49,378 nucleotides of DNA from Fidelibacterota bacterium. GTDB taxonomy: Bacteria > Fidelibacterota > UBA8477. Each line of letters starts with the position of its first letter. Position 1 is the first letter of the stretch. The translations under genes and the position numbers were made by a program. The stretch lies in the NCBI GenBank assembly GCA_021734065.1, contig JAIPJQ010000005.1, positions 1-49,378 on the forward strand. The letters run 5' to 3'. The notes below the pieces were generated by a model that was not told the DNA's origin, searched no databases, and was given only the letters and a program-made list of their open reading frames with translations. Below, piece after piece: positions 12,100 through 49,378 of this stretch.

Positions 12100-12108
12100 G
12101 GAGTTAGC

Positions 12109-16818: not shown

Positions 16819-16828
16819 GGAGGCTATG

Positions 16829-21000: not shown

Positions 21001-21394
21001 TGGTTCGGTTACCTTCAATTTACCGTATGATTTCATGACCAGTTTTATCGGGACATACGGTTCCGGCCTGCCATACACACCCAGCTTTGCCGGAGAACGG
21101 ACATCGTTTGAGAATAGCGAGCGCCGTCCGGCTCAGATAAACCTGGACATGCGGGTCACCAAATCCTTCCGGATGATCGGGACAAAGTGGACATTCAACC
21201 TTAATGTGTACAATGTCCTGGATCGTCGGAATGAAGTAGTCGTCTATTCAGACACCGGTCGCTCCGGGTATTCATTGATACCCACCTACACACCGGAGGA
21301 CCAGGGCGTTAACTCGCTCAGTGATTATCTCTTCCGTCCTGACTACTACTCATCACCCCGTCAAATACGAATCGGAATGTCCGCAGCATTCTAA
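18044..21394 (+). CDS. TonB-dependent receptor, cassette copy 2
   Basis: A 1,116-aa paralogue of the receptor at 8.6 kb with the same order: signal peptide (to about FLFAG), carboxypeptidase-regulatory-like domain (GKISGLVTDADTGEPLIG, GIYEVRFSMIGY), plug (IHIRGGRSSEVGYMVDGIS, GTFNAEYGQAMSGIINIVT) and barrel. Its insert differs from copy 1. It has a C355-x10-C366 module with GDDPNGDNWHP, then calcium-loop-like units (DMDGNGIF, DANGNGVID, DANGDGVW) to about residue 482. LSPRVAVAYPITDEG and GHFFQIPPYSYLYANPDFE match the other receptors. The start has GAGGG upstream. The stop overlaps a downstream ATG by one base (TAATG), linking it to the next giant gene. The ligand is unknown. Confidence 0.92.
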   Translation: MLKKGAKALLLGLIFPAFLFAGTTGKISGLVTDADTGEPLIGVNVMVSDLGTGAATGLDGRYIILNIPPGIYEVRFSMIGYAQRNVEGVRVMVDLTTPLDAELTTSIIEGESVTVTADRSMVQADITFSQSNISASDLSAMPVEEFEEVISLQAGVVQGTGGEIHIRGGRSSEVGYMVDGISVTDPYTASMAIEVENNAIQELQLISGTFNAEYGQAMSGIINIVTKEGDMKKYGGNIDFRIGRYASTDPKIYFGGMPDSMYDKAGTENINLLGLGDGFTPTLLNDIQGSINGPIPGLNGKASFYLSGRYYRGDGYLYGIRQYNPESYTWSVSNSQAVPNTEYYLDYEDIGIDNCTDEFEDGMGGCSPAPTNLGDDPNGDNWHPLFNPGGTENNNRWDAGELGNGVWDGGDYIEYFGHNILYDVASGEWYRDMDGNGIFIEGTDWFVTDSLTFVDANGNGVIDGEIFYDANGDGVWSSDFGDGSVVPMSPTHQVSLQGKVAFKLGNHMKVSVNTIYSTTRSEGYSHKWKFNPDGRASSYRDNMNVSVSLQHNLSPSTFYTLKASSVVNMTRGYLFDVFDVNWSSILLKNVFSPFISKSEVLTDFGFPGESDVVDSQLQQYAVSGDIFTASSGYKYYLGGISSGQSQRMTHTNVYKADMTSQINDVHSLRMGFEYRQNAILSRNFSILYDPNGQFATPTIIWPSVEPTSSSFDQLLKFPWEMATYLQDKIELQDMIVNAGLRFEVFEPDGGVLSDPADPNPRDPLKLINKYFDLDGSGTITADEAVPTNGKTLEDRLEYWFIPAKKKYQLSPRVAVAYPITDEGALHFSYGHFFQIPPYSYLYANPDFEVSRGSGIGTTLGNADLEPQRTVQYEVGLQQQLSDNIGVDITGFYKDIRNLLGSKIVDTFSAGDAYALYINRDYGNTRGVTIALRKRMSDGLAANIDYTFSVAQGNASDPASAYFDANNGIEPEKQLVFLDWDQRHTVNGSVTFNLPYDFMTSFIGTYGSGLPYTPSFAGERTSFENSERRPAQINLDMRVTKSFRMIGTKWTFNLNVYNVLDRRNEVVVYSDTGRSGYSLIPTYTPEDQGVNSLSDYLFRPDYYSSPRQIRIGMSAAF
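19090..19245 (+). repeat. CX10C / GDNWHP acidic module, copy in TBDR 2
   Basis: The translated stretch is GIDNC, ten residues, C (C355 and C366), then LGDDPNGDNWHP, a PGGTENNNRWDAGE stretch and acidic residues. It matches modules in both giant proteins but is absent from the TBDR of copy 1. It is followed by calcium-loop-like units. Confidence 0.75.
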
Positions 21395-21405
21395 TGAGGA
21401 ATCCC

Positions 21406-24400: not shown

Positions 24401-26091
24401 AGGTGGCGGAAGGTATCCAGATAAATCTCACCAATGATGTGATTGGTCTGGATCTGGATGGCAGCGGCTGGTCGCAGAGTGGACTCAATATGACCACCCG
24501 CCTGCTGCTCATCAACTATGGGAATTTTCAGGCGGTTGCCACGCCCTTCGATTATGTGATGGAGGTGACGCCAACCATTGTGGATACGGCGAAAAATATG
24601 AAGTTCACCGCATTCTCCCTGTATGATCAGACCAATCAGCAATCGGCCGAATTCATCTATCTGCCGGTGGAAAATGACACCCTGATCAAGGATGGTGGGA
24701 AACTCTATCCTTATATTGAGGTGGAAGGCCAGCAAAGGGTCGGCTACCAGATGGAATTTGTGGCGATTGCGGCGAATATCAATCATATGGTCAAATGGCA
24801 GGATGTCATGTTCTTTGCCACTGGTGATCGGGGATTGATACTCTGGGATGGCACCAATTGGCTACCCATTACCCAAACTGACGGACTGGCCGCCAATGCC
24901 ATTTATGACATGGTCGTGGATGCCTCCGATCGTTTGTGGGTCGCCACCAGTGGTGGTTTAAACCTCCAAACGCCCTACGGCTGGGAAACCTACGGCATTC
25001 CCAAAGGCGATAAGGGCGCTCTCACCGAGTTTAACGGTCTGACTATTGATACGGATGGTAATCTATGGGCTACCAGTCCCGATGGCGTTTTCAAAACCAG
25101 CCTGGGCACTATCGCGTGGTCCAACTACGACGAAACCAATGATGGCCTGGCTCAGCTGAGCAATGTAGCCATCGTGGCGCTGGATAGCGGGAAAGTACTG
25201 GCTGGTAGCAAAAGCCGCGGCTTGAGTCTCTACCATCCGGTGGCTGATTCGTTTACCGTGATTGACCGGAATAACTCCGATCTCCCGGACAACAATATCC
25301 AGGTGCTGACCAGGCGTGGGAATCGCGTTTTCATCGGAACCCGGTTACAGGGCTTTGCTGTGTATAACGATGACGACGGTACCATTGAATACACCAACAA
25401 GGACAGCCTGCTGGACCGGGGAGTGAGTGACATTCTCATTGGTGCGGACAATGTGGTGTTACTCGCCACGAAAGATGGTGTGGATTCGCTTACATATGTG
25501 GATAAAGACAATGTTACCTATCATAATCCCTTCACACGGGAATCCGATCCGGGTATCCTGAGCGATAATGTTCAGACGTTGTTTCTTGAAAATGATGAGT
25601 TGTGGTTCGGAACGAAGTATAATGTGGCCAGACGCACTGCTGAGGGCTGGAATAATTTCAACCCCCAACCGGGCGACAAATATGTCCTGCGAACAACCAA
25701 ACCCTTCTCCGGCCTGGATACACTCCGGTTCACATCCTATGGTGCCCGGGTGACCGGTGGTTTAGCATCCTCGGTTCTGGACGATATCGCCGTAGTCCCC
25801 AATCCTTATGTCGTTACAGCCAGCTGGGAACCACAGCACCTGTACTCATCCGGTCGGGGAACCCGCAAAATTGATTTCATCCACCTGCCAAGCCAATGCA
25901 CGATCCGGATATATACCATGAGTGGTAAGCTGGTGGATACGATTGAACATGATGCACCGGCTCAGAATGGCGCACAAAGCTGGGACTTGCTCTCCCGGGA
26001 CGGATTGGAGATCGCCTATGGCATGTATATCTACCATGTGGATGCACCTGGGATTGGGACAAAAGTCGGCAAATTCGCGGTGATTAAATAG
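21406..26091 (+). CDS. Giant secreted FN3/beta-propeller protein with sorting domain, cassette copy 2
   Basis: A 1,561-aa paralogue of the protein at 12.1 kb. A signal peptide covers about residues 1-27 (MKLNLKTTFSLIILVPMLVW, cleavage near GKAQ). Then come an unrecognised N-terminal region, an acidic block (GVDNDEDGMIDESQDDG, GPDADGTEGNG), an FN3-like domain (GDRRVTLYWDSKAEL, GYRIYRATD, GQQYYYAVVAYDQG), a C907-x10-C918 module with GTDPNGDNWHP, and propeller blades (DRLWVATSGGLNLQ, GNLWATSPDGVFKT, DELWFGTKYNVARR). A C-terminal sorting-type domain follows (VPNPYVVTASWE, GMYIYHVDAP) and ends KFAVIK. I prefer the ATG at 21406 because GAGGA precedes it; the ATG at 21394 overlaps the TBDR stop and has a worse site. 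A probable surface partner of the TBDR, with no visible catalytic motif. Confidence 0.84.
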   Translation: MKLNLKTTFSLIILVPMLVWAAGPGKAQRSVVSPQLARANGLGVDANDHDSRKIAWHDGNKILTRFYNFAAISNWRIAGRYDCGIYPIGSGHSYMAEFTPLIASQVKDARGLTQYIISDGTSASAQDVAPSGYLYQFEPVLGYANPNDSLLAMSDDSISWPDTWPGKPDSWDGKWNGQYGQYNRADQESYFHVDDFNNDEFNYYSFYREGYADLNGRFLAAVDADSSRYGYLIDADVDFTTGVVDLATSKELDTRGGDRPDVVQINGERYYSVEEVLDEHTLLLESVRASAAEDVSNANYTIWNGIKRGLGMDVSARGYQWAHPAAEDILIWTYWIENVSDRDYEKFVFGMYGDADVGDDGDQYDDDSMFETVDDIVYQWDHDMWSPVKGGFEPAYFGWKYLESPGNPLDGVDNDEDGMIDESQDDGIDNDGDWDPRIDDVGTDGLGPQHGEYTGPDADGTEGNGVPDPGEPNFEYTDNDESDQLGLTSFTAAAYPAIAPSDDALTWTQLVPGSFTDIAQTVDITFMYGSAYFKLPRQEERKFAVAMLFGEDFPDILRNSQTMQQIYNSDYSFAKPPLKPTVTAVAGDRRVTLYWDSKAELSQDPIYGRDFEGYRIYRATDPAFNESWVITDAYGNRTFNKPIAQFDIVNGLTGPHPIGLNGLQMDMGTDNGLVHSWTDTTVENGQQYYYAVVAYDQGYANDFYERGITEMPNLQEISPSETNKKIEVSASGTVVAYDDNTVGVIPNAPAIDYMAPEVVADTSRTLSTGSFDIQPVDPNAIQDGSSYEIRFRDWSNDGVDNDGDWQTFTDDSLFITMSSTLTMIIPPNSDTLNLRFSNDRATVTGPNVTRFTAFGYFWATTTVSVDTTNGTPFYYVAIPDTQLVIPPTLGIWNGTENLHDDLGTDGCNDEYEDGSGGCLDAPDPGYVAGTDPNGDNWHPTTNRFGTQANAQADPGEPHLDMRDIDEIVRFTSWYDVVNTTTDQLILQHQTELSGENRGEVAEGIQINLTNDVIGLDLDGSGWSQSGLNMTTRLLLINYGNFQAVATPFDYVMEVTPTIVDTAKNMKFTAFSLYDQTNQQSAEFIYLPVENDTLIKDGGKLYPYIEVEGQQRVGYQMEFVAIAANINHMVKWQDVMFFATGDRGLILWDGTNWLPITQTDGLAANAIYDMVVDASDRLWVATSGGLNLQTPYGWETYGIPKGDKGALTEFNGLTIDTDGNLWATSPDGVFKTSLGTIAWSNYDETNDGLAQLSNVAIVALDSGKVLAGSKSRGLSLYHPVADSFTVIDRNNSDLPDNNIQVLTRRGNRVFIGTRLQGFAVYNDDDGTIEYTNKDSLLDRGVSDILIGADNVVLLATKDGVDSLTYVDKDNVTYHNPFTRESDPGILSDNVQTLFLENDELWFGTKYNVARRTAEGWNNFNPQPGDKYVLRTTKPFSGLDTLRFTSYGARVTGGLASSVLDDIAVVPNPYVVTASWEPQHLYSSGRGTRKIDFIHLPSQCTIRIYTMSGKLVDTIEHDAPAQNGAQSWDLLSRDGLEIAYGMYIYHVDAPGIGTKVGKFAVIK
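24106..24305 (+). repeat. CX10C / GDNWHP acidic module, copy in giant protein 2
   Basis: The encoded segment is DDLGTDGC, ten residues, C (C907 and C918), then GTDPNGDNWHP, an asparagine-rich stretch and DPGEPHLDMRDIDE. It aligns with the module in giant protein 1 and in the copy 2 TBDR. Confidence 0.75.
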
Positions 26092-26100
26092 GAGGCCATG

Positions 26101-27147
26101 ATGAAAAAGCTACTGATATCAGTTGTTGTGATGATGGTTGGGGCGACCTATTTACACGCGCAATTTGTGGAGAATGTCTCCAAGGTAGGTACCACAGCCG
26201 GTTCGTTTTTAGAAATTGGCATCGGCTCCCGGGCTATGGGAATGGGCGAAGCCTATGTAGGCATGGCCGATGATGTGACTGCATTATATTGGAATCCGGC
26301 CGGATTGGCGCTGATTCCCAGGAATCAGGTCACGTTCGTGCATACCCAATGGCTGGCCGACATCAATTTCAATCACATTGCCGGCGCTTTTCCCCTGGGT
26401 CGCTCCGGAACACTCGCGGCTTCGCTTACCTCGCTGAATATGGGTGAGGACAAAGTCAGAACCGTTTTTTATCCCGAAGGAACCGGCGAAATGTTCACCG
26501 CTTCCAGCGTGGCCATGAGTGTGGGATTTGCCCGTCGGTTTACGGATCGGTTCAGCTTCGGAGCTGCCGGAAAGTATATCCGGGAACAAATCTGGCACAT
26601 GAGTGCTTCAGCTCTGGCCGTTGACATTGGAACGCTGTTCCGCACCCAGTTCAATGATATGCGCATTGGGATGAGCATCTCCAATTTCGGTACAAGTATG
26701 CAATTAGAGGGACGGGATACACAAATTACCCATGACATTGATGAGTCCAAAGAGGGGAATAACTCCAAAATTTCTGCGCACCTGGATACGGACGAATGGT
26801 CGTTGCCACTGCTGTTCCGGGTCGGTATCGCCGGTGAGGTCATCCAGTCCAATCACCAGCGGCTCACTCTGGCTCTGGACGCCAATCATCCCAACAATTA
26901 CGCGGAAAGTGTACAGATTGGGGCAGAGTATGCCATCAGAGAATTCGCATTCCTGCGTATCGGTCACAAATTTTATCTGAATGATAAAAATGAAGATGGT
27001 GACCCCAATTCACCTGAGGGTTTTACAGCCGGAGCCGGCGTGAACCTGCTCATCTCCCGCAATACCAGATTCTATCTGGATTACAGCTATGGAGATTTTG
27101 GTCTGCTGGACCAGGTACAGCGGTTCAGTATAAATCTTGAGTTTTAA
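26101..27147 (+). CDS. PorV/PorQ-family (UPF0164) outer-membrane barrel, cassette copy 2
   Basis: A 348-aa paralogue of the protein at 16.8 kb. The signal peptide runs to about YLHAQ. The PorV-type N-terminus is present (GTTAGSFLEIGIGSRAMGMG, ADDVTALYWNPAGLALI, FVHTQWLADINFN), as are FRTQFNDMRIGMSISNFGTS near the middle and a C-terminal strand ending RFSINLEF. Two tandem ATGs occur at 26098 and 26101. AGGAGG overlaps the upstream stop and is better spaced (5 bases) to 26101. The gene closes the second cassette and is followed by a terminator. Two barrels of this family in one cluster suggest each is dedicated to its neighbouring cargo, by inference. Confidence 0.85.
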   Translation: MKKLLISVVVMMVGATYLHAQFVENVSKVGTTAGSFLEIGIGSRAMGMGEAYVGMADDVTALYWNPAGLALIPRNQVTFVHTQWLADINFNHIAGAFPLGRSGTLAASLTSLNMGEDKVRTVFYPEGTGEMFTASSVAMSVGFARRFTDRFSFGAAGKYIREQIWHMSASALAVDIGTLFRTQFNDMRIGMSISNFGTSMQLEGRDTQITHDIDESKEGNNSKISAHLDTDEWSLPLLFRVGIAGEVIQSNHQRLTLALDANHPNNYAESVQIGAEYAIREFAFLRIGHKFYLNDKNEDGDPNSPEGFTAGAGVNLLISRNTRFYLDYSYGDFGLLDQVQRFSINLEF

Positions 27148-35497: not shown

Positions 35498-36249
35498 TGC
35501 TGTCTGAAACAGAAATTAAGCGTGCAGCAGTCCTCATTAAAGAATCACCCTACACCGTAGCCTTCACCGGCGCTGGCATTTCAGTAGAATCTGGCATCCC
35601 GCCCTTCCGTGGTGGGGATGGTCTGTGGAATAAATTTGATCCTTCGTTTCTGGAAATCGATTATTTTTACCAACAACCCCTGAAGTCATGGGAGTTGATA
35701 CGGAAAATATTCTATCAATACCTGGGGAAAGCCCGTCCCAATAAAGCCCATGATGTATTAGCGCGGATGGAAGCGCGGAAACTTATTCACGCCTTGATTA
35801 CCCAGAATATCGATAATCTCCACCAGCAGGCCGGCAATCAGGATGTGATTGAATTCCACGGTACCACCGGCAGGTTGATCTGCACCGCTTGCCACCAAAC
35901 AATCAACGATACTGCCCAAATAACAAAACTGATTGAGAACTTACCACCTGCCTGTCCTGAGTGCGGGGGACTGCTGAAACCGGATTTTGTTTTTTTCAGT
36001 GAAATGATCCCTGAAAGCGCACGGGAGCGTAGTTTCACCGCTGCACAAAAAGCGACTGTTTTCATGATTATTGGTACATCCGGAGATGTCTTTCCGGCTG
36101 CCATGCTCCCTCCCAGATCAAAACAGACCGGCGCTACGATCATTGAAATTAATACGGCACCGACATCCTATACTGACGCCACCACAGATATTTTCCTGGA
36201 AGGCAAAGCATCGGTGGTCATGGAAGCAATTGAAAAAGCGTTGGAATGA
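35494..36249 (+). CDS. Sir2-family NAD-dependent protein deacylase
   Basis: A 251-aa cytoplasmic sirtuin. It uses NAD+ to remove acyl groups from lysines. Visible motifs: GAGIS at 26-30 with IPPFRG, the NAD/active-site stretch [12 protein letters not shown] (103-114), catalytic H122 in EFHGT, and four zinc cysteines C130, C133, C154 and C157. [14 protein letters not shown] is the usual IGTS block. It lacks the Tyr-x-x-Arg motif of SIRT5/CobB-type desuccinylases ([11 protein letters not shown] instead), so it is more likely a deacetylase. Its start overlaps DUF523 and its stop overlaps the RNase HII fusion gene by ATGA. Acs at 1.6 kb is the classic substrate class in other bacteria. Confidence 0.92.
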
Positions 36250-37262
36250 TGGCGCCATACGACTCAGACATACGCCCGGAAAAACAATGGTGGCAGCGTG
36301 GGAAGCGGGTTATCGGTGTGGATGAAGCCGGACGCGGTCCCCTGGCCGGACCCGTGGTGGCTGCCGCGGTGGAATTGAATCCTGAGAATTTACCCGTTGG
36401 CATTAAAGACTCAAAAAAACTCACTGCCAAATCACGGTCAACTGTAGCGACAACTATCTATGCACAATCTATTCAAACAGGCATTGGCATCGTTCATGAG
36501 CAGGAGATTGACCGGATTAATATTTTACAAGCCACTTTTCAGGCCATGCGATCAGGTTTAGAAAAGTTTAAAACTGAGAATACCCATGTTCTGGTCGATG
36601 GCAAATTTACCATTCCGGATTTCGAACAGGAACAGACTGCGTTGGTGGATGGAGATGATCTGAGTATCTCCATCGGCGCGGCGTCCATTATTGCCAAAAC
36701 CTTTAGGGACAGAATGATGTTGTCCTACCACGTGCTGTTTCCCGAATATGGGTTTGATGCCCACAAAGGCTATGGCTCCAAACGCCATTTGGAAGCTCTG
36801 ACGGAGTACGGTCGCTGTCCAATTCACCGGCGTTCTTTCAATCCGGTACGCGATGCACCTAATCGGCGGTTTCGCATGAAGGATAATGCCCAAAAAGCCG
36901 GGTGGTTGGGAGAAATATATGCCGGAATGTATTTTGTCCGGAATGGCTATGACCTGTTGATGCATGGCTACCACGGCAGTCGGGATGGTGAAATTGATCT
37001 TATTGCACTTAAGGGCAGGGAGGTCATTTTTGTAGAGGTCAAAAGCTATCTTCGCGCTGCAGAAGCCGAACCAGCCCATTATCGGGTTACACCCGCTAAA
37101 CAAAAGAAAATTGCGGATACTGCAGAGCATTTTTATACCAATGAGGTGTACAAAAATCGCTATCCGGCCGAACCGGAAAGTCGCTTTGATATTGTCACGG
37201 TGGATTTCAGCCGAAAAAAGCCGGTTTTAAAGCATTTTGCCGACGCATTTTTACCCCTTTGA
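36246..37262 (+). CDS. rnhB: Fusion of RNase HII and UPF0102 (YraN-like) nuclease-fold domain
   Basis: A 338-aa protein with two domains. Residues about 15-205 are RNase [18 protein letters not shown] with catalytic D26/E27, [28 protein letters not shown] and [13 protein letters not shown]. It cleaves RNA in RNA/DNA hybrids, including single ribonucleotides. Residues about 215-330 are UPF0102/Yra[18 protein letters not shown], then [19 protein letters not shown], a PD-(D/E)XK-type core. In many bacteria rnhB and yraN-like genes are adjacent; here one frame joins them with no stop, via a short linker. It overlaps the sirtuin gene by four bases; the next gene starts 84 bases later. Confidence 0.92.
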
Positions 37263-37345: not shown

Positions 37346-39091
37346 ATGACCCCATTGATCACTAGACCCTTCCAATTGATAGCTAGAACACTGCTTATGA
37401 GCCTTTTTCTAATCGGTGGTATAAGCAATTCTCTTCTGGCCTGGGATCCGCCTGCCTATGGCCAGAATGGGATGGTGGTCGCCCATGATGAACTGGCCGC
37501 AGAAGCCGGCCGAAAGGTATTGGCTGCGGGAGGGAATGCCATTGATGCAGCTGTTGCAGTGGGATACGCATTGGCGGTAACCTACCCACCAGCCGGCAAT
37601 ATTGGTGGCGGTGGGTTTATGGTGATTCGAATGGCCGATGGGCGTATGGCAGCCATTGACTATCGCGAAAAAGCCCCTGCAAGAGCAAACCGAGACATGT
37701 TTTTGGACGATTCTGGCCGGGTGGTCCCGGGATTAAGTCTGCAGGGTGGTTTAGCTGTAGGTGTTCCTGGTACGGTTGCCGGTTTGCAGATGGCGCTGGA
37801 CAATTATGGGACCATGAAATTGAAAGAGGTGATCAACCCTGCCATTGATCTTGCCAAACGCGGATTCCCTGTAAATTTTTATCTGTCATACGCGCTACAC
37901 TACCTAAATCAAGCCGCTGCAAAATACCCGGAAACCGTACGGGTGTTTGGTCGGGACGGAAATCCCCCTAAGCCGGGAGAAATTTTCAAACAGCCTGACC
38001 TGGCGCGCACGCTGAAAACCATTCGGCGGAAGGGTCCGGCTGGCTTCTATCAGGGGAAGGTTGCTGAGAAGTTGGTGGAATCCGTACAGGCAGCCGGTGG
38101 TATTATTTCGCTTGAAGATTTGGAAAATTATCAGCCTGTTTTGAGACGTCCGGTCACCGGTGAATACAAAGGTTATCAAGTCCTGTCAATGCCACCACCG
38201 AGTAGTGGCGGGATTGCCCTGATTTCTATGCTCAACATGCTGAAACAATTTGAATTAGACACCATGGACTGGCACGGTGCAGATTATGTGCAGGTGTTGA
38301 CAGAAGTGGAGCGTCGTGCTTACGCTGATCGCAGCGTCTGGTTTGGCGATGCTGATTATTGGCCGGTTCCTACCGAAACATTACTCTCTATGGCTTATGC
38401 GAATACCCGTATGGCGGATTTTGTCTGGGGAAAAGCCACACCCAGTGAAATGGTGCAACCGCTGGGAGATGCCGCCATGGACTCACTAAAAGCGGTTTTA
38501 CGGGAGAGTGAGGAAACCACCCATTATTCAGTCGTTGACAAGTGGGGGAATGCCGTGAGTACAACTACCACGCTGAATTGGACGTTTGGATCACTGGTGA
38601 CCGTAAATGATTGCGGGTTTTTGCTGAATGATGAAATGGACGATTTCAGTGCGAAACCGGGCGTTCCCAACGCGTTTGGATTGGTGGGCAATGAAGCCAA
38701 TGCCATTCAACCCAACAAGCGCATGCTTTCAAGTATGACCCCGACCATTTTCGTGAAAAATGACAGCGTCCGCTATATCATCGGTACGCCCGGTGGCTCT
38801 ACCATCATTACCTCTGTGATGCAGGTGTTTTTAAATGCTATTGAGGAAAGAATGGGAATTGTGGATGCGGTCCGAATGCCCCGGGTACACCACCAGTGGC
38901 TGCCGGATGTCATCTATATCGAGCCCTATGCATTGGGACCGGAGACCATTGCCGCATTGGAGCGAAACGGTTACAGAGTGGTGATTCGCAGTACCATCGG
39001 TGAGGTAAATGCCATCGGCTGGGACCCAATTTTCAAGGGTTGGATTGGGGCGCCGGATCAGCGCGGTGCGGCGGCAGCGGTTGGGTATTAA
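37346..39091 (+). CDS. ggt: Gamma-glutamyltranspeptidase
   Basis: A 581-aa exported enzyme that hydrolyses or transfers the gamma-glutamyl group of glutathione and similar peptides. A hydrophobic signal follows the start (ARTLLMSLFLIGGI, cleavage near LLAWD). The large-subunit region has GMVVAHDELAAEAG, GGNAIDAAVAVGYALAV, GNIGGGGFMV and YREKAP. Autocleavage would occur before T392 in EETTHYSVVD, giving the small subunit with catalytic Thr, followed by NDEMDDF and GTPGGSTII. I chose ATG 37346 because AGAGGA sits nine bases upstream; the longer frame from 37259 adds an unconvincing N-terminus. It lies between the RNase HII fusion and signal peptidase genes, all plus strand. Confidence 0.93.
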   Translation: MTPLITRPFQLIARTLLMSLFLIGGISNSLLAWDPPAYGQNGMVVAHDELAAEAGRKVLAAGGNAIDAAVAVGYALAVTYPPAGNIGGGGFMVIRMADGRMAAIDYREKAPARANRDMFLDDSGRVVPGLSLQGGLAVGVPGTVAGLQMALDNYGTMKLKEVINPAIDLAKRGFPVNFYLSYALHYLNQAAAKYPETVRVFGRDGNPPKPGEIFKQPDLARTLKTIRRKGPAGFYQGKVAEKLVESVQAAGGIISLEDLENYQPVLRRPVTGEYKGYQVLSMPPPSSGGIALISMLNMLKQFELDTMDWHGADYVQVLTEVERRAYADRSVWFGDADYWPVPTETLLSMAYANTRMADFVWGKATPSEMVQPLGDAAMDSLKAVLRESEETTHYSVVDKWGNAVSTTTTLNWTFGSLVTVNDCGFLLNDEMDDFSAKPGVPNAFGLVGNEANAIQPNKRMLSSMTPTIFVKNDSVRYIIGTPGGSTIITSVMQVFLNAIEERMGIVDAVRMPRVHHQWLPDVIYIEPYALGPETIAALERNGYRVVIRSTIGEVNAIGWDPIFKGWIGAPDQRGAAAAVGY

Positions 39092-39142
39092 TGAACTTTC
39101 TGAGTCAGCCGGAGTTACAGCTACAAATTTTTAAGGATCAGA

Positions 39143-40033
39143 ATGGCTAAAAAATCAAAAGGCAAACCGAAAGACCGCGGATTTTCGCGGGGCTTACTCC
39201 ATGTCATTGTTTCTGTGTTGATTCTGCGGGCAACGGTGATTGAGGCTTATAATGTTCCTACCGGATCCATGGAAAATACGGTCAGGGTGGGGGATTTCAT
39301 TTTAGGGAATAAATTTGTCTATGGTATTCGCACACCGGACTGGATTGGCATTCCCTGGACGAATATCGGTTTCAGTGTTCCATACACCAGACTCCCGGGA
39401 TTCGCCGTTCCCAAAAGTGGTGATGTGGTGATTTTTCGGTATCCCAACGATCGCTGGCCAGCCAATGTGATCGGTCCACTGGATCCCAGTTTGAATTACA
39501 TCAAACGCTGTATTGCCGGTCCCGATGAGACGCTGCAAATCAAGCAAAAACGGGTTTATGTGAATGGTGAAGAAATGCCGCTTCCCACGCATGGAAAGCT
39601 TTCCTACGCCAATATGATGCCGCCTGAATACAAGGAGCGCATGATTTTCCCGCCCGGAATGGGAAACCGGGATAATTATGGCCCACTACGAATGCCCTCA
39701 GTCGGCGATACGCTGCGAATTGACGCCACGAATCTTGAATTTTGCAGAAATGTGATCAGCCTTGAGGGACACGAGGTGTTTTCCACCCAAAATCATAAAT
39801 TGATTATCGATGGCAAACCTGCGGATTATTATGTCTGCAGTCAGAACTTCTACTTTATGATGGGTGATAACCGGGACAATTCACATGACAGCCGATTCTG
39901 GGGACTTGTACCCGAAGACAATATCATCGGTGAAGCGCTGATGATCTATCTTTCCTGGGACCAGACTGAGCCTAATTTGGTGAAACGCTTGTTCACCCTG
40001 CGGCCATCCCGGATGTTTACACTGGTTGATTAA
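39143..40033 (+). CDS. lepB: Signal peptidase I
   Basis: A 296-aa membrane serine protease that removes signal peptides of secreted proteins. One N-terminal membrane anchor (about 18-33) is followed by the catalytic serine S42 in VPTGSMENTV. The catalytic lysine is K121 in YIKRCIAGPDE, where the family usually has PGD. MMGDNRDNSHDSRFWG is the conserved C-terminal box. An insert of about 60 residues between the lysine box and the final box is common in this phylum. AAGGAT precedes the ATG. The enzyme would process the many secreted proteins in this window. Confidence 0.95.
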   Translation: MAKKSKGKPKDRGFSRGLLHVIVSVLILRATVIEAYNVPTGSMENTVRVGDFILGNKFVYGIRTPDWIGIPWTNIGFSVPYTRLPGFAVPKSGDVVIFRYPNDRWPANVIGPLDPSLNYIKRCIAGPDETLQIKQKRVYVNGEEMPLPTHGKLSYANMMPPEYKERMIFPPGMGNRDNYGPLRMPSVGDTLRIDATNLEFCRNVISLEGHEVFSTQNHKLIIDGKPADYYVCSQNFYFMMGDNRDNSHDSRFWGLVPEDNIIGEALMIYLSWDQTEPNLVKRLFTLRPSRMFTLVD

Positions 40034-40162
40034 CCCGTCAGGTAAATCAGCAGGCAGAGCTAGCATTCCCCTCCACAAAGACCTTCTATAAAAATCCAAT
40101 TTTGGATATCAGCTAGTTGCATCCGGTAAGGGTACGCAGATGTTCTTTTGGTGCGGATTCGT

Positions 40163-41236
40163 CTATTCTTGCATGGAATCATTGTTTGGAATATGGACCG
40201 TCTTACCCAGGGGTAGGGTAACAAAGGCATCATCCGGTAAACCCTCTGCCAGAGTGGCAGCATTCAGTCTCTCAACCGGTTCCTGAATCGGTTCGTCGGT
40301 CAGAATAAAAGTTCCCCAGTGCATACCAATAGAAAATTGGGAGCGAATGTCCTGATGAATACGTACGGCTTCTTCCGGATTTACATGATGATTCTTCATG
40401 ATCCAGCGTGGATCGTACGCGCCAATGGGAATAAGTGCCAGATCGAATGGCCCCCAATCGGTACCGATCTGCTTAAATTGGATTGGGTTATAGCCGGTAT
40501 CGCCCCCAAACCAGAGCCGTTGCTCCGTGCCAATAATCGCCCAGCCGGCCCATAAGGTTTCATTTCTGTTAAAAGGCGTCCGCCCACTGAAATGTTGGGT
40601 GGGTGTACAAACAATTTTCAGATTCTCAATCCGGGTTGAGTCCCACCAATCCAATTCCTGTACCGTTTGGATCCCCAGATCCTCAAACCACTGCTTCACC
40701 TTCAACGGAACCAACCATTGCGCGGTTGTGCCCAGGTGCTCCACGGTCGTCCTATCCAAATGGTCATAATGATTATGTGAAATGACAATCACATCAATCG
40801 GTGGCAGACTTTCCATTGAAAATGCTGGCGGTGAAAGCCGTTTGGGACCGGCCCATTGAACCGGGGAGCAGCGATCAGAAAAAATGGGGTCCGTGAGGAT
40901 ATTCATTCCATCTAATTGCACCAGAAATGTACTGTGACCCAGCCAGGTTACCTGTAAACCACCATCAGCAGGCGTGTGGATCGTTTGAAATTCGGGTTTA
41001 ACACGCGGGACTGCCCGGGCGATCAAGCTGTCCGCTGGGTTTGGTATTTCCCTTTCCTAAAACCATTTCATGAGCTTTTTGAATCCGGGTTCAGATTCCT
41101 GCGAGACATACGGATTTACAAAACCACCATCCGGATGATGATGCGCTGGTGATATCCCGCTTTCAAGTTGCCCGTGGCAGCCAATGGTCAGCCAGAAAAT
41201 AAGAATGTGAAAAATTGAGCTTCGTGCCATGGTCAT
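40163..41236 (-). pseudogene. NAPE-PLD-like metallo-beta-lactamase-fold lipoprotein, interrupted by an in-frame TAG
   Basis: The intact frame would give 357 aa. A lipoprotein signal with lipobox TIGC (C20) starts at ATG 41236 behind AGGAT. Then come HHHPDGGFVNPY and KKLMKWF, then TAG at 41059-41057, then EREIPNPADS in the same frame. The downstream part has VTWLGHSTFLVQL, ILTDPIFSDRCSPV, the metal motif SHNHYDHLD, TPTQHFSGRTP, WFGGDTGYNP, IPIGAYDPRW and GMHWGTF. This order closely follows N-acyl-phosphatidylethanolamine phospholipase D, including the FVNPW...RW N-terminal block of that family. The only start within the downstream frame is TTG 41026, with no Shine-Dalgarno. The gene may be a fresh pseudogene, a sequencing error, or partly read through. 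Its own final stop is also TAG, so TAG is a normal stop here. Confidence 0.75.
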
Positions 41237-41320
41237 TAATATCCGATCCTGAAAATTAGCTGGTAGAATAATTTGCACCTGACCATTTCGCAAGTTCATG
41301 TGAGGCTGATTTTTATCAAC

Positions 41321-41349
41321 TTGGAAACACACCACTCCCAAGATATAAT
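41321..41349 (+). promoter_or_regulatory. Near-consensus promoter abutting the SDR start codon
   Basis: TTGGAA at 41321-41326 and a perfect TATAAT at 41344-41349 are 17 bases apart. The ATG is at 41357, about where transcription should start, and no Shine-Dalgarno lies between. This predicts a leaderless mRNA. Confidence 0.65.
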
Positions 41350-41356
41350 AGCCGCC

Positions 41357-42037
41357 ATGCAGAAAACCATACTCATAACTGGTTCGAATCGCGGAATTGG
41401 ACTGGCACTGACTGAAGCTTTCATGAAGCAGGGTTACCGCGTCCTGGGGACAGCGCGCCAACCGGAAAAAGCCGTGCAACTGGGTAAACTGCTCCCCGAA
41501 AAAGATATTCTCCGTCTGGATGTATCTCAGGAGGATAGTATTGGCGAGTTTGGTGTGTTTTTAGAACAGCGGAATATCCAACTCACAGGGCTGATTAATA
41601 ATGCCGGTGTGTATGGTGGCCGGGAAGGTTTTTCAGAAATTGAATCTGCCATTTTGATGGAAACATTTCTGGTGAATGCTGTGGGTCCGCTCATGGTACT
41701 TAAAAGCTGTCTGCCTGTTTTGACTCCCGGCGCTAAAGTCATGAATGTCTCCTCCAATATGGGTTCGATTACCAATGCTGGTGGCCGGCATTACGCCTAC
41801 CGCATGTCCAAATCCGCATTGAATATGGCTACCCGTATTCTCAGTATCGATTTTCCTGCTGATCGTTTCATTTTTGTCAGTGTTCACCCCGGGTGGGTTC
41901 AAACCGACATGGGCGGGGAACACGCCAATATTACCCCGCAGCAGAGCGCTGAAGCGCTTCTCACAGTTTATCTGAACCTCGATTCCGGTGATTCAGGAAA
42001 GTTTTTCAGTTACACAGGAAAGACACTGGAATGGTGA
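41357..42037 (+). CDS. Short-chain dehydrogenase/reductase (SDR)
   Basis: A 226-aa cytoplasmic NAD(P)-dependent SDR. The Rossmann motif is TGSNRGIG (about 8-15), followed by LDVSQ, NNAGV (NAG motif), NVSSN with the catalytic Ser, and YRMSK (YxxxK). HPGWVQTDMGG is the PG motif region. The substrate is unknown; it resembles sniffer/carbonyl-reductase-like SDRs. I chose ATG 41357 (MQKTILITG) because the Rossmann strand begins there; the longer frame to 41273 is implausible and would span the promoter. It is divergent from the interrupted lipoprotein gene, and the two 5' ends are 120 bases apart. Confidence 0.9.
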   Translation: MQKTILITGSNRGIGLALTEAFMKQGYRVLGTARQPEKAVQLGKLLPEKDILRLDVSQEDSIGEFGVFLEQRNIQLTGLINNAGVYGGREGFSEIESAILMETFLVNAVGPLMVLKSCLPVLTPGAKVMNVSSNMGSITNAGGRHYAYRMSKSALNMATRILSIDFPADRFIFVSVHPGWVQTDMGGEHANITPQQSAEALLTVYLNLDSGDSGKFFSYTGKTLEW

Positions 42038-42127
42038 TTATTATCACCAACAATTAACCAATCTTTCATATATTATTCCCGAATTTACCATCACGAGCAT
42101 ATCCCCATTTCCTCAGTTTGTAACAAT

Positions 42128-42143
42128 TAGCACGGTTCTTGCA
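42128..42143 (+). promoter_or_regulatory. Sigma54-like promoter element upstream of mltF
   Basis: TAGCACGGTTCTTGCA matches the sigma54 consensus TGGCAC-N5-TTGCA at all positions but one: the first G of the -24 GG is A. The predicted start is near 42155, about 60 bases before the ATG. I did not see an enhancer-binding protein gene nearby. Confidence 0.35.
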
Positions 42144-42217
42144 TCATACCTCCGCGAGTAAACGATAGCCGCAGAAATACGATGATAAAAGTAACCGACC
42201 ACGACTGAACAACCTCT

Positions 42218-43714
42218 ATGCTGAACTTATTTACAGATAAAAAAAACCGCCTGCTGATCCTACTATCCGGGATATTGGTTTCAGTAACCACTTTGTATTA
42301 TTGTAGTAGTAATTCTACCGGTAATCACGATTCGGTGTTGTCCGGCGATTTGACGGCTGCAGATAGTGCAGAAATATACGCAAAATCCACTATGGCTCGT
42401 ATTCGAGCAAAAAATGAGCTGGTCGTTCTGACACACTTCAATGCCAATAGCTATTTTATTTATCGCGGTCAACCCATGGGGTATGACTACGAGTTGTTAC
42501 AATTATTTGCCGGGGAGTTGGGTGTAAAACTCAAAATAATTGCTCTGAACAGCTGGTCCGAGATGGAACCGGCTTTGATGGCCGGTGACGGTGACATGAT
42601 CGGTACCGGGATGACAGTTACTCAAAACAATGGGAAATCTTTGGAATTTACAGATCCCTTGCGATCCACTCGTCAGGTTCTGATTCAGCGAATGCCCGAT
42701 AACTGGCAGAGGTTGAGAGAGCATGAAATCGAGAATCTGCTCATCAGGAATCCCATTGATTTACGCAATCAAACCGTGAGTGTACACGCTAATTCAGCTT
42801 TTTCCGATCGGCTGGAAAATTTATCCCAGGAAATTGGCGGGGACATTTATGTTGATTCTGTTCCTGATTCAATTGGAATTGATGGCATGATTCGTCTGGT
42901 TTCTGAAGGTGAAATTGAATACACCATTGCTAATGAAGATGAAGCGCTGCTGTATCAATCACTCTATCCCAATATTGATGTGGGAACACCCATTAGTTTT
43001 ACACAGCATATTGCCTGGGCGGTTCGTGAAGATTCACCCTTCTTGCAGAATGCGGTCAATGACTGGCTGAATCAGATGCAGTCAACTTATGATCCTACCT
43101 ACAATGTCATTTACAATAAGTACTTCAAGAACATGTCCGCATTTCGACGCCGTGTGTACAGTGATTATTTTTCCATGAATGGCAGTCGTATTTCGGCATT
43201 TGATGATTTATTCAAATCCCACGCCTCCCGGATTGGATGGGACTGGCGATTACTGGCCGCACAGGCTTTCGAGGAATCCCGGTTCAACAGACATATCGAG
43301 TCCTGGATGGGGGCTGTGGGTATCATGCAGCTTCTGCCTTCCACGGGTGAGCGGTTTGGTGCCAAGGATTTACGAAACCCATCGGAAAATATTCTAGCCG
43401 GTACCAATTATCTGAAATGGCTGGAGCGTTACTGGGAGCGGGAAATTGCCGACCCGGCCGAGCGCATGAAGTTCATCCTGGCCTCCTATAATGCCGGGCA
43501 GGGACATATTCAGGATGCTCGTCGTTTGGCCGCTAAATATGGCTATAATCGCAATGTGTGGGATGACAACGTGGCGGTTTTTCTGCTTAAAAAATCTAAT
43601 AAGAAATATTACAGCGACCCGGTAGTACGCTTTGGGTATTGCCGCGGGGATGAAGCCTATCAATATGTTAAGGACATTCTGGAGCGCTATGAGCATTATA
43701 AATTGCTCACCTGA
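42218..43714 (+). CDS. mltF: MltF-like membrane-bound lytic murein transglycosylase
   Basis: A 498-aa envelope protein. Residues 12-30 are a membrane/signal segment; C29 follows YY, so the lipobox is not canonical. Residues about 60-300 are an SBP_bac_3-type domain (GYDYELLQLFAGELGVKLK, MIGTGMTVTQNNGKSLEFT), followed by an SLT domain. FEESRFNRHIES holds the catalytic Glu (E353), with MGAVGIMQLLPSTGERFG and ASYNAGQGHIQDA. In E. coli MltF the first domain regulates the lytic domain, which cleaves glycan strands to 1,6-anhydro-muropeptides. There is no good Shine-Dalgarno before the ATG. A sigma54-like element is upstream. The next gene follows after 34 bases. Confidence 0.9.
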   Translation: MLNLFTDKKNRLLILLSGILVSVTTLYYCSSNSTGNHDSVLSGDLTAADSAEIYAKSTMARIRAKNELVVLTHFNANSYFIYRGQPMGYDYELLQLFAGELGVKLKIIALNSWSEMEPALMAGDGDMIGTGMTVTQNNGKSLEFTDPLRSTRQVLIQRMPDNWQRLREHEIENLLIRNPIDLRNQTVSVHANSAFSDRLENLSQEIGGDIYVDSVPDSIGIDGMIRLVSEGEIEYTIANEDEALLYQSLYPNIDVGTPISFTQHIAWAVREDSPFLQNAVNDWLNQMQSTYDPTYNVIYNKYFKNMSAFRRRVYSDYFSMNGSRISAFDDLFKSHASRIGWDWRLLAAQAFEESRFNRHIESWMGAVGIMQLLPSTGERFGAKDLRNPSENILAGTNYLKWLERYWEREIADPAERMKFILASYNAGQGHIQDARRLAAKYGYNRNVWDDNVAVFLLKKSNKKYYSDPVVRFGYCRGDEAYQYVKDILERYEHYKLLT

Positions 43715-43748
43715 AATCCATGTGAATTTTGTTCTGCCGGAGTGATAT

Positions 43749-44336
43749 TTGGGAAAAATGGGAATGATAACTATGTTGGGCTTTATTTTAGCCGCCATCT
43801 CGTTAATAATCGTACTGAGCGTATTTGCTATAAATCGCAAAAATATCAAAAAATCACCCCGGAAACACTGGATGATCTGGGCTGGATTAATCATCCTTCC
43901 CGCATCCTTGTTCTGGATTGGGTATGAATCATCCGTCTTGTCATTCAATATGCAGACGCGTAGCTGGCAAGCCGCTCCAGGCGTTATTTTGAAATCAGAG
44001 GTTAGTGGCGAACGGGCTATCCATCCGGCCATTACTGTCCGTTATACGGCAGGGGATGTGATACATTCCTTCACAACGGATCTTTTTGCTCCCGGATTTG
44101 GCGTACGCTCAAACCGACGCGATCAGGCGGAAAAATTGGTGGCAGAATATCCAGCCGGAGATACAGTCACAGTATATGTAAATCCCGATAATCTGTTACA
44201 GGCACGGATCCATCCCGGACCTGCCTGGAACCATTACTTGCGGGTTGGACTTGCCATGCTTTTCACCAGCCTTGGTTTTTGGTTGATTTTGGTATATTTG
44301 GGAAGCCGTGGGGAAAAAGAGGCTTTTCAACGGTAG
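43749..44336 (+). CDS. DUF3592-type membrane protein
   Basis: A 195-aa protein with hydrophobic helices near residues 5-25 and 40-58, and another at about 165-185. The central region (VILKSEVSGERAIHPAITVR, YPAGDTVTVYVNPDN) has the DUF3592 pattern. Function is unknown. TTG 43749 has GGAG six bases upstream and is favoured over the ATGs at 43758 and 43764. It lies between mltF and a zinc-ribbon membrane protein. Confidence 0.7.
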   Translation: MGKMGMITMLGFILAAISLIIVLSVFAINRKNIKKSPRKHWMIWAGLIILPASLFWIGYESSVLSFNMQTRSWQAAPGVILKSEVSGERAIHPAITVRYTAGDVIHSFTTDLFAPGFGVRSNRRDQAEKLVAEYPAGDTVTVYVNPDNLLQARIHPGPAWNHYLRVGLAMLFTSLGFWLILVYLGSRGEKEAFQR

Positions 44337-44397
44337 CAGAATTGAAAAAAATAATTATGTTATACCAAGCTATCGGGATGGAAAAAATAGGTTTGAA

Positions 44398-44991
44398 ATG
44401 AAGCGTGAATTTTCTTGGTTAACAGGTCTGCTATGGGCCGTCTCCGCTGTAGGTTACATCATCTTTTTAACCGGAATCGTTGCATTATTATGGGGTGTGG
44501 AAAAATTCGTGGCCAGTCCGGGTTCCGAAGCCTCCGCGCTGGATCTGATGGTGATCGGATTTTTTGCTTTCAGTGGCTTAATCGTGGGGACAGTGATGCA
44601 GGTTTTCCGGGTGGCAGTGAGCCTCAATGACAAAGCATTAAAAATCATAGAGCAGGTTGAACTGTTGGATGTGCGTATTCGCAGCGTTGTTCCGCAAAAT
44701 CGCCAATTGAAACAGTTGGATTCCCTGAAAGATTTGGTGGATGTGAACCGGGAGATGCTGGATAATTTGAAATCCATGGAAACGGTTCAGAGTGAGGTAA
44801 AAAAGGGGATTAAAACTGCGAAAACAGACCCGGAGGCTGAACCATCCAAACAGAGGAAACACCGCAAATCTGATTCGGATCCGGTCACGATCATGCAGGA
44901 TGAACAGAAATGGGAATGCCCCAATTGCCATGCGGAAAACCCGGGTTACCTGTTTAAATGCCGCGAGTGTGGCAAAGAAGTGAACCGGTAG
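44398..44991 (+). CDS. Membrane protein with C-terminal zinc ribbon
   Basis: A 197-aa protein. Two helices (about 5-30 and 45-65) are followed by a charged, probably coiled-coil stretch (about 75-140; NDKALKIIEQVELLDVRI, KQLDSLKDLVDV), a basic linker (KQRKHRKSD) and a C-terminal zinc ribbon with two CxxC pairs (CPNC and CREC). Similar arrangements occur in uncharacterised bacterial proteins. I chose ATG 44398 because helix 1 begins just after it; the frame opens at 44308 but that would overlap the DUF3592 gene. Its stop is 17 bases from the convergent BNR gene, with no clear terminator between. Confidence 0.7.
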   Translation: MKREFSWLTGLLWAVSAVGYIIFLTGIVALLWGVEKFVASPGSEASALDLMVIGFFAFSGLIVGTVMQVFRVAVSLNDKALKIIEQVELLDVRIRSVVPQNRQLKQLDSLKDLVDVNREMLDNLKSMETVQSEVKKGIKTAKTDPEAEPSKQRKHRKSDSDPVTIMQDEQKWECPNCHAENPGYLFKCRECGKEVNR

Positions 44992-45008
44992 CTCCTCTAA
45001 TTTAGCGG

Positions 45009-48000
45009 CTATTTAATCATCGTTACTTTTCTAACCGCCTCCACATTTTTCCCACGTAATCTGAGATAATACACACCCGATCCCAGCACATGACCATTCT
45101 CGTCCGTGCCGTCCCAGGTGATGGAATAATTTCCCGCCGGGTGGGGGTGGGCGTCAGAGATGAGGGTTTTCACCAGTCGGCCCCGAATGTCATAAACAGT
45201 CATCTGAATATGTGAAATCGTGCTGAGTGAATAGGGTATGGTGGTGGATGCGTTAAATGGATTGGGATAATTTGCTTCCAATGCAAATTGCGCCGGTATC
45301 GTCTGTTCCGATGTGAGTCCGGTGGGGGATGTGATGACTATATCATCAATAGCCCAACCCCAACCGGTTACATATTCATCGGCGAAAAGCCGGAATCGAA
45401 TGCGAATGGTATCACCAGTGGCGTAAAAGTCATTCAGGTCGATGGAATGTTGCCGCAGAAGGTTTTGGGATCCGTCTGAACCAGCATTGTAGGCATTCTC
45501 CCAGGCATCATCAAACCGGGCATCATACGGATCTATGAACATTGTCCAGTTCGAACCATCAAGCGAGCCCTCAACCGTCACATAATCCCATATCACCTGA
45601 TCCGGATAGGAAGAACCCGGTTCGCCGGGCTCCACCAGCGCCACATCAGAATAGGTCAAAATCGACGCCTCAGTGATGATGATGGGGGGTGCAAGATATG
45701 TTTGATAATTCTGACCGGAAGCATAGGGGTGTAATGTTTGGAGGATATTCGAATCAAATCCGGGAGCAGCACCGCTCTCCATATCACCAACCATGAGTAC
45801 ACCTGTGCTGTCAAAATTTGCTGCAAAATTGGAGACAGGTGCAAAGAGTGATACGGACTGAGATTCGCTGGGATAAGCAAATCCGTCTGTATAGCCCACC
45901 ACAGTCACGCCAAGCGTGTCACCGTATTCACCTGTAATTTCTGCATTCAATTCGGAGTAGGCCGTGGTTGCGCCAAAAACATGAACGGCCTGGTCATTGA
46001 CAACAACCTGCACTGAATCATGATCACTGCGTGTGCTGAATTGAATCTGAATGCTTGTATTATTAGGTGGTGGCGGATCAATTTGAGCCAGAATTGGGGC
46101 GAGCGTCGGTATCTCCAGCGGTGGGAGAGAATCCAGATGAACACTCCAGATACCCCGACCATGGGTGGCAGCTGCGATTTCCTGCCCCACAATCTTAAGT
46201 CTTTTGATGGCAACCGCCGGAATGCCATTGTCAGCATACGCCCAACTATTTCCGCTGTCCATGGATATGAATAATCCGATGTCCGTTCCGACCCAGATCT
46301 GTGATGTATCGAATGGCATCACAATCAGAGTATGTACCGGCACATTTGGCAGATCATTGGTCAGATCCGTCCAGGATTGTCCCAGATCATCCGTACGGAA
46401 TATTTTTGGTGAGTAACTTACCCCAAAAGTTACGAAGGCTGTGCTGTCCAGAACGGGATGGGTACCCATACCAATCACTCTGCTGTAAGGAGCCGAACCA
46501 GGTGGTGTGACCGCATGGAAATGCCGACCATGATCTGTGGAAACATTTATGCCATCACGGGCAGCTGCTGCCCAGACGATATTGGAATTGGCTGCTGAGA
46601 ACTGAAAAACTTTGTAGGAATATCCGTTAAATTCACCCTGAATACCCTCCCAGTTATCACCACCATCTGCTGTGCGGTATACAAAATTACCATCTCCCAC
46701 GACCAGCAGGACATCCGAATCCCGGGGGTCCATGGCCAGGCTGGTGTAGAAAACACTACTTTGGGGTAAGCCACCCTCAACACTCTGAAAATGACTCCCG
46801 CCATCGGTGCTTTTAAAGAGTCGGGAGTAATACAAAGACCCGTAAACGATATTGCCATCGTACTTATTCCAGGCGCATTCAAAACCATCACCACCGATAA
46901 CTTCATCCCAACTGCTGCCCTGATCTGGTGAAAGGGGCGAACGATTGGTGCCATTATCCTGTGTACCACCCAGAAATTGTGCATGTACCGGATGTTTGTC
47001 GGCATCATAGAATTGGGTCACATTATAGCCATTATCCCGCATGGACCAGGTATTTCCATTGTCAGGTGAATAGAAAACACCGCCGTCATTCCCGGCCACA
47101 ATAGCGTATTGGTTTTCTTCAGTGGGTATTGTCACAAGAATATGTTGATCCGCATGGACGTAGGGATACCCGGCATCCGGATACCAGTTGGAAATCTTGG
47201 CCACGGACATGGATGAGGTATTTGCCGTTACCCGGTAGAGGTCAATGCCGCCCACAATGATCTCGTTGGGATTGTGGGGTGAGACCACCAGCGTATTGTC
47301 GTACCAGCCCTGGCCGCCCAGCCAATTGGGTGAATTTCCCAGATATGACCAATTTTCGCCCGCATTTGACGACCGGTAAAAACCTCCCAAACTGCTACTG
47401 GCTGTGGTGAGCGTGGCATATAAAACGGAGGTGTCAGAAGGGGCAATAGCCAACTCAATCCGCGCGAAACTCCCATTAAACGAACCCACGGATGACCAGG
47501 TGACGCCGCCATCGGTTGATTTAACCACACCTTCTCCATTTATTCCCGCGTACTGGGTATGGAAATTTTGGGGATTGGCAATGATATGCTGGACACGACC
47601 ACCAGGATTATACACTTCATTCCAGGAAGCGCCACCATCCACGGATCGATAAATCCCTTCATTAGTAGCTACAAGCAGGAGATCAGGATTGGTGGGATGC
47701 ACGATGATTCGATTAACATATTTAAAATGAGGCTGTCCGGCTGTGCTGTTGAGCTGCTGCCAGGATTCACCGTGGTCAGTGGATTTGAACAAACCGTCAC
47801 CGATAACCGCATCAAAATTGTAAAATCCCTCGCCGGTTCCCGCGTACGTCACATTAGGTTGGGAATCACACTGGGCTAAAGCGGTGATTGACAGAATCGG
47901 CAGGTCGTCAGATACGGGTCTCCACGATTGTCCCGCGTTTTCCGTCTTCCAGATGCCACCACCAACAGCGCCGGCGATCCAGACGGAACTGGAATCGGGA

Positions 48001-48425
48001 TGGACCAGAATCGCCCGGGTGCGTCCACCTACATTTGCGGGACCACGCTCAACCCATGGTAATACTTCACGACGCGCCAACCGGCGATTCGCTCGTGCTT
48101 CACGCAATGCCTCAAACCGATAACTTCCGGAGTAACTGTAGGGTCCATCAATCTCCGAACGCAGCATCACCTCAAGCGCCATGGCCTCGTCTGGTTTATC
48201 ATATTTCGAATTTTTATTGACCTGTGCATTGGGATCAGCGCTCGCTTCCCGGCGGCGTCGTTCCATCTTTTGGTCATAGGCATAGGCCATGAGTCCTTCG
48301 GCCGTGGACAAATCGTATTTGAGTTTGGGGTGGACGGGTTGCTCATTTCTATCAGATTGACGAATGAGAAGTATTATGGCAAAAGCCGCTATTGCACTGA
48401 TTGTCAGCAATATATTGCGTTTCAT
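45009..48425 (-). CDS. Secreted BNR/VPS10-type propeller protein with T9SS sorting domain
   Basis: A 1,138-aa protein with an N-terminal hydrophobic signal (residues 5-22). The body has about twelve BNR/sortilin-like units with S-x-D-x-G-x-x-W, such as FKSTDHGESWQQL, YRSVDGGASWNEV, VKSTDGGVTWSSV, YRTADGGDNWEGI and FRTDDLGQSWTDL. These form large propellers in sialidase/VPS10-type proteins; no sialidase catalytic set is evident. A jelly-roll-like region (GWGWAIDDIVI) precedes the C-terminal T9SS domain (ANYPNPFNASTTIPY, GSGVYYLRLRGK), which ends VTMIK. CGGAG lies before the ATG. It starts 18 bases after the truncated TBDR, on the same strand, so the two form an operon. Confidence 0.88.
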   Translation of the reverse strand: MKRNILLTISAIAAFAIILLIRQSDRNEQPVHPKLKYDLSTAEGLMAYAYDQKMERRRREASADPNAQVNKNSKYDKPDEAMALEVMLRSEIDGPYSYSGSYRFEALREARANRRLARREVLPWVERGPANVGGRTRAILVHPDSSSVWIAGAVGGGIWKTENAGQSWRPVSDDLPILSITALAQCDSQPNVTYAGTGEGFYNFDAVIGDGLFKSTDHGESWQQLNSTAGQPHFKYVNRIIVHPTNPDLLLVATNEGIYRSVDGGASWNEVYNPGGRVQHIIANPQNFHTQYAGINGEGVVKSTDGGVTWSSVGSFNGSFARIELAIAPSDTSVLYATLTTASSSLGGFYRSSNAGENWSYLGNSPNWLGGQGWYDNTLVVSPHNPNEIIVGGIDLYRVTANTSSMSVAKISNWYPDAGYPYVHADQHILVTIPTEENQYAIVAGNDGGVFYSPDNGNTWSMRDNGYNVTQFYDADKHPVHAQFLGGTQDNGTNRSPLSPDQGSSWDEVIGGDGFECAWNKYDGNIVYGSLYYSRLFKSTDGGSHFQSVEGGLPQSSVFYTSLAMDPRDSDVLLVVGDGNFVYRTADGGDNWEGIQGEFNGYSYKVFQFSAANSNIVWAAAARDGINVSTDHGRHFHAVTPPGSAPYSRVIGMGTHPVLDSTAFVTFGVSYSPKIFRTDDLGQSWTDLTNDLPNVPVHTLIVMPFDTSQIWVGTDIGLFISMDSGNSWAYADNGIPAVAIKRLKIVGQEIAAATHGRGIWSVHLDSLPPLEIPTLAPILAQIDPPPPNNTSIQIQFSTRSDHDSVQVVVNDQAVHVFGATTAYSELNAEITGEYGDTLGVTVVGYTDGFAYPSESQSVSLFAPVSNFAANFDSTGVLMVGDMESGAAPGFDSNILQTLHPYASGQNYQTYLAPPIIITEASILTYSDVALVEPGEPGSSYPDQVIWDYVTVEGSLDGSNWTMFIDPYDARFDDAWENAYNAGSDGSQNLLRQHSIDLNDFYATGDTIRIRFRLFADEYVTGWGWAIDDIVITSPTGLTSEQTIPAQFALEANYPNPFNASTTIPYSLSTISHIQMTVYDIRGRLVKTLISDAHPHPAGNYSITWDGTDENGHVLGSGVYYLRLRGKNVEAVRKVTMIK

Positions 48426-48443
48426 GTAAACTCCGGTTTATGA

Positions 48444-49378
48444 TTAATAATTGATTCCAATGCCAACACGGGCACGCCGTCGATAATCAATCGCGCCCGG
48501 ATCTTCCAATAAACCACCCGGCCGTCCGGCTGTATCCATCCATAAGATATTTTCAGCATCCAACAGATTCATCGTCTCGACAAACAGGTATGCGGAGGTG
48601 TGATTTGTAATTTCAAATGACCGGTGCAACCGGATATCCACAGTTGTGGTGGACTCCATACGGGCATTGTTGGGATGGGTTACTTCTGCCTGATCCAGCG
48701 TGTAGGGAAACGGGCTGTTGTAGCGCCACAAAATATTGATACCGCCCCAGCCGGGTCTTTTCATGTCCAGATTCAATACCAGTGTATGACGCTGGTCCCA
48801 ACTGAGATAGTATTGGTTTACCGGTACACGATAACCCTGCTGAATCCAGCTGAATTTCTCAAATGAACTTGATCCGGTCCCTGTTCCAATCATGTATGTG
48901 TAGCTGATTTTACCGGATATGTTTTCATTATACGTGCGCTTCAGATAGATCTCCAACCCCTGAATATTGACCATGGCCAGATTCACAAATTGGGTGTATC
49001 CACTGCTACGATAAACATCCGTGGAAGTAACGGATTTATATGTATTTGCATCCACCAGATTGGTCGCTTCTTTCTTGAAAATGGTGAAATCAATCATGGT
49101 GGATTTCGTCATTTCACCACGGCAACTCACTTCCCACATCACCGTCTTGGCAGGACGCAGATCCGGATCGCCCAATGGTGAAAATCCATTTGCCTGATTG
49201 TAGTTGGAGTTGGTGTACAGGTAGTCGAACAGGGGCATTTGGAAAAACCAGCCGTAGTTCATATGAATCACGGCGGTGGAGGTGATGGGGAAAGCCACAC
49301 CCAGTCGCGGACTCACCTGATGTTTGGGTGTTGCTTCCACCATTTCATCATAATTCAAAATCCAGGTTTCTCTGTTAT
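48444..49378 (-). CDS. TonB-dependent receptor, C-terminal part (truncated by window end)
   Basis: The frame is open through the right edge of the window, so the N-terminus, plug and most of the barrel lie beyond it. Residues read WILNYDEM before HQVSPRLGVAFPITSTA and YGWFFQMPLFDYLYTNSN, matching the equivalent stretch in the two other receptors here. SWDQRHTLVLNLD is also shared. The barrel ends RRRARVGIGINY. A TTG at 49358 is internal, not a start. It is co-directional with, and 18 bases upstream of, the BNR-propeller gene. Confidence 0.85.
   Translation of the reverse strand, partial: NRETWILNYDEMVEATPKHQVSPRLGVAFPITSTAVIHMNYGWFFQMPLFDYLYTNSNYNQANGFSPLGDPDLRPAKTVMWEVSCRGEMTKSTMIDFTIFKKEATNLVDANTYKSVTSTDVYRSSGYTQFVNLAMVNIQGLEIYLKRTYNENISGKISYTYMIGTGTGSSSFEKFSWIQQGYRVPVNQYYLSWDQRHTLVLNLDMKRPGWGGINILWRYNSPFPYTLDQAEVTHPNNARMESTTTVDIRLHRSFEITNHTSAYLFVETMNLLDAENILWMDTAGRPGGLLEDPGAIDYRRRARVGIGINY

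Follow-up and report, generated by a model that had tools for sequence, protein, structure and literature searches.

The window, by which we mean the whole stretch of DNA that was analysed (49,378 nucleotides), is contig C70 of genome G000, an assembly of 2.5 Mb in 170 contigs that is 82% complete. On its reverse strand, the frame 41236-40163 (-) spans 358 codons of a NAPE-PLD-like metallo-beta-lactamase-fold hydrolase gene, and its translation contains exactly one internal stop, a TAG at codon 60 (41059-41057, -) flanked by KWF and ERE. The terminal codon is also TAG (40165-40163, -), and the 297 codons 3' of the internal stop hold no second lesion. The statement of the earlier note that a single in-frame amber interrupts an otherwise intact frame was thus borne out by translation. 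For comparison we used this one genome of the species and two genomes of the same genus, G001 and G002. The features of the locus are:

40163..41236, reverse strand: NAPE-PLD-like metallo-beta-lactamase-fold hydrolase gene with one internal stop (Pfam, 4qn9_A, orthologues in G002 and G001)
41177..41236, reverse strand: N-terminal signal peptide ending in the lipobox-like LTIGC, with a non-canonical Thr at -3 (pattern test)
41108..41122, reverse strand: FVNPY block, 5' of the stop, equivalent to FVNPW of human NAPE-PLD via the alignment of the G002 orthologue
41057..41059, reverse strand: in-frame TAG, codon 60; TGG (Trp) in both same-genus orthologues
40163..41026, reverse strand: fragment 3' of the stop from the first possible start (TTG), 287 aa, without signal peptide (open reading frame)
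40754..40780, reverse strand: SHNHYDHLD, the HxHxDH zinc motif (alignment with 4qn9_A)
40583..40600, reverse strand: TQHFSG, aligned with His253 of human NAPE-PLD
40490..40507, reverse strand: GGDTGY, aligned with Asp284 of human NAPE-PLD
40307..40324, reverse strand: MHWGTF, aligned with His343 of human NAPE-PLD
40163..40165, reverse strand: the gene's own terminator, TAG (translation)

The 5' part of the gene holds the signal peptide and FVNPY, and the 3' part the full catalytic domain. Such a division, with FVNPY before the stop and a complete metal site behind it, had been described from the sequence alone; here, the motifs were located and all ligands were aligned with 4qn9_A. The 287 residues 3' of the stop match Pfam Lactamase_B_2 (PF12706, E 1.3e-43), and residues 103-390 of the human NAPE-PLD chain 4qn9_A are matched over the whole catalytic domain (E 9.2e-83), which confirms the NAPE-PLD-like identity that had been proposed. 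The positions His185, His187, Asp189, His190, His253, Asp284 and His343 (4qn9_A numbering), which we take to be the individual zinc ligands of human NAPE-PLD, are identical in seven of seven cases. The lipoprotein signal, earlier called perfect, was overstated: LTIGC fits a permissive PS51257-type pattern only and fails the strict lipobox [LVI][ASTVI][GAS]C at -3 (Thr), and the orthologue of G001 has no lipobox Cys.

How does this gene compare with known systems? Human NAPE-PLD (PDB 4QN9), whose di-zinc site is built by conserved motifs of the fold (PMC4819959), is similar end to end in the catalytic part and shares all zinc-ligand positions, and in the 5' region its FVNP block and KW/RW stretch align with the intact G002 orthologue. 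Unlike the human enzyme, the window gene is bacterial, carries an N-terminal signal peptide and a stop at codon 60, and has a putative substrate. Many bacterial NAPE-PLD-like MBL-fold hydrolases (PF12706) have the same N-terminal block, and the group is widespread; across the genome collection, at least 586 stretches were confirmed. A stop in the N-terminal region is peculiar to the window copy among the homologues compared. The UPF0173 metal-dependent hydrolases (TM_1162, PRK00685) have the fold and superfamily in common with the window protein, but the match is far weaker, at 71 bits against an NCBIfam cut-off of 144. A literature search on bacterial NAPE-PLD-like lipoproteins found nothing specific. 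The uninterrupted reading frame expected of NAPE-PLD-like MBL-fold hydrolases is broken here by the TAG at codon 60. Judged by its sequence, the gene is classed as an interrupted member of this family, with hydrolysis of N-acyl-phosphatidylethanolamine as a putative activity.

Do the two halves belong to one gene? The same-genus homologues read through codon 60 and the sequence is conserved on both sides of it, so that the halves can be regarded as one gene. A comparison with close relatives, proposed in the earlier note, was run on the two same-genus genomes and found both orthologues intact, at 79% identity in G002 and 63% in G001, with TGG (Trp) in place of the TAG within the conserved block KWF-W-ER. 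The contig that carries the G002 orthologue is colinear over its whole length with window positions 39013-49378, at 75-82% DNA identity over 10.4 kb. Of the restoring codons that had been suggested (TTG, CAG or TGG), TGG is the one that the relatives support. Further afield, a stop at the aligned column was seen in none of 95 homologues from many phyla, which were picked as open stretches with metal motifs and in which such a stop would show as a gap; Trp is the commonest residue there (25), ahead of Phe (18) and Arg (17), and the N-terminal part of the frame is uninterrupted in the homologues. Parsimony suggests a single G-to-A transition, TGG to TAG, private to G000 and probably later than its split from G002. 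A search of plasmids found distant homologues only, below 60% identity. In G000 itself, no paralogue was found at E 0.001 or better, therefore nothing replaces the interrupted gene in the sampled part of this 82%-complete genome.

The age of the lesion was assessed from the sequence 3' of the stop. With G001 as outgroup, we counted 9 private amino-acid changes in G000 and 12 in G002; pairwise dN was 0.14, dS was saturated near 2.8 and dN/dS was about 0.05. Constraint 3' of the stop shows no relaxation in G000. As a rough estimate from these values, more than 1-2 percent of the branch spent in neutral drift should have produced a recognisable excess. Since no such excess is present in G000, the lesion is either very young or not real. 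An old pseudogene was ruled out by the lack of both acceleration and further lesions.

Based on these observations, we consider it probable that a vertically inherited gene for a NAPE-PLD-like exported zinc hydrolase underwent one recent TGG to TAG change in the strain or population that was sampled. Ribosomes beginning at the native start would then halt after 59 codons and yield a short exported peptide lacking the catalytic domain; production of that domain would depend entirely on weak internal initiation or trace misreading, and the change may be so recent that further decay has not yet accumulated. The sequence anatomy, the Trp of the relatives and the missing decay are observed directly, whereas we infer that function is lost and that the change exists in the living population.

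A consensus error of the assembly, or a minority variant that entered the consensus while most cells carry an intact gene, would give exactly the same sequence picture as a real nonsense change, and we regard it as a serious, if rather unlikely, alternative. One base differs, other decay is absent, the orthologues are intact in both congeners, and the genome is both fragmented (170 contigs) and 82% complete, all of which would suit an error. Against it, the assembly does not appear generally error-prone: when 684 kb of G000 was compared with 374 kb of the sister genome G002, 129 ORFs could be matched at 55% identity or more, and these 129 comparable genes of the 684-kb sample yielded no second clear mid-gene stop. 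The other apparent stops in the sample, each of which was inspected, fell in over-extended 5' ends, in antisense ORFs or a few residues from the natural C-terminus, and frame differences were confined to one tandem pair of paralogues. An error-riddled assembly was ruled out, as the NAPE-PLD-like gene alone has a clear mid-gene stop in the sample. As nonsense errors do not abound in the assembly, a real nonsense allele is somewhat favoured over a consensus error. A tandem pair of paralogous genes (L143, 6020-7461, and L173, 17216-18657), which share about 65% identity with each other, is conserved at 96-99% identity from G000 to G002; the NAPE-PLD-like protein reaches 79%, far less.

Could the interrupted gene still deliver a hydrolase? 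A split gene that remains partly useful, in which initiation 3' of the stop gives a cytoplasmic hydrolase without signal peptide, would be consistent with a downstream ORF of 287 aa that retains the entire Pfam domain and all metal ligands, and with amino-acid change that is not in excess. However, the missing decay is equally explained by a young lesion, the relatives keep the N-terminal frame open, and the first in-frame start is a TTG at 41026, about 30 bases 3' of the stop, with no obvious ribosome-binding site by eye; we consider this arrangement improbable. The intact frame on both sides of the TAG would also allow programmed or suppressor-tRNA readthrough of UAG to a full-length protein, which we judge to be very improbable. 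TGG occupies the codon in the congeners, none of the homologues carries a stop at the column, RF1 (prfA), the release factor for UAG, is present in intact form, and TAG closes the NAPE-PLD-like gene itself as well as 84 of the 465 ORFs with 150 aa or more (about 18%) in the 684-kb sample of G000; within the window it terminates 7 of 29 genes. A TGA that had been considered inside prfA does not lie within the gene, whose ORF is open from MLLDKL to LAEL. A suppressor tRNA with a CUA anticodon, which the earlier note had suggested looking for, was not found with ARAGORN among the 27 tRNAs that an RNA-family search detected in the whole 82%-complete assembly; one tRNA at a contig edge was missed by ARAGORN and has by eye an apparent UGA anticodon. 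tRNA-Trp was not among these 27 either, which shows the survey to be incomplete; a CUA suppressor could sit in the missing part of the genome. A reassigned UAG was ruled out by the use of TAG as terminator, the intact RF1 and the tRNA survey. Thus, of the three origins first offered for the amber, a recent lesion and an assembly error are kept, while readthrough became unlikely on the evidence of the tRNAs seen, RF1, the common TAG terminators and the relatives. That the amber is a real, maintained site of readthrough or restart, setting the amounts of exported and cytoplasmic hydrolase in the species, seems to us scarcely credible. G000 also encodes a selenocysteine tRNA with anticodon UCA (L199, contig C18, 14740-14830), which reads UGA, not UAG; UGA-encoded selenoproteins are therefore likely in the lineage.

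With the recent nonsense change as the preferred reading, the case is an ordinary one: a member of a widespread family hit by a recent nonsense change, or by a consensus error. It matters little beyond annotation, where an entry as an interrupted NAPE-PLD-like hydrolase with intact relatives is appropriate; citing the sequence in support of recoding is not. Independent of the lesion, the lipid substrates of the intact bacterial NAPE-PLD-like enzymes are worth testing.

Elsewhere in the window, one ORF at 36246-37262 (+) combines ribonuclease HII (PF01351, E 3e-41) with a UPF0102 YraN-type endonuclease-like domain (PF02021, E 1e-15). Two successive similar sets at 8563-17869 and 18044-27147 (+) each comprise a TonB-dependent receptor, a propeller-type protein of about 1570 aa and a PorV-like protein (the domain scan refers to the first set); the arrangement resembles a three-gene block duplicated in tandem.
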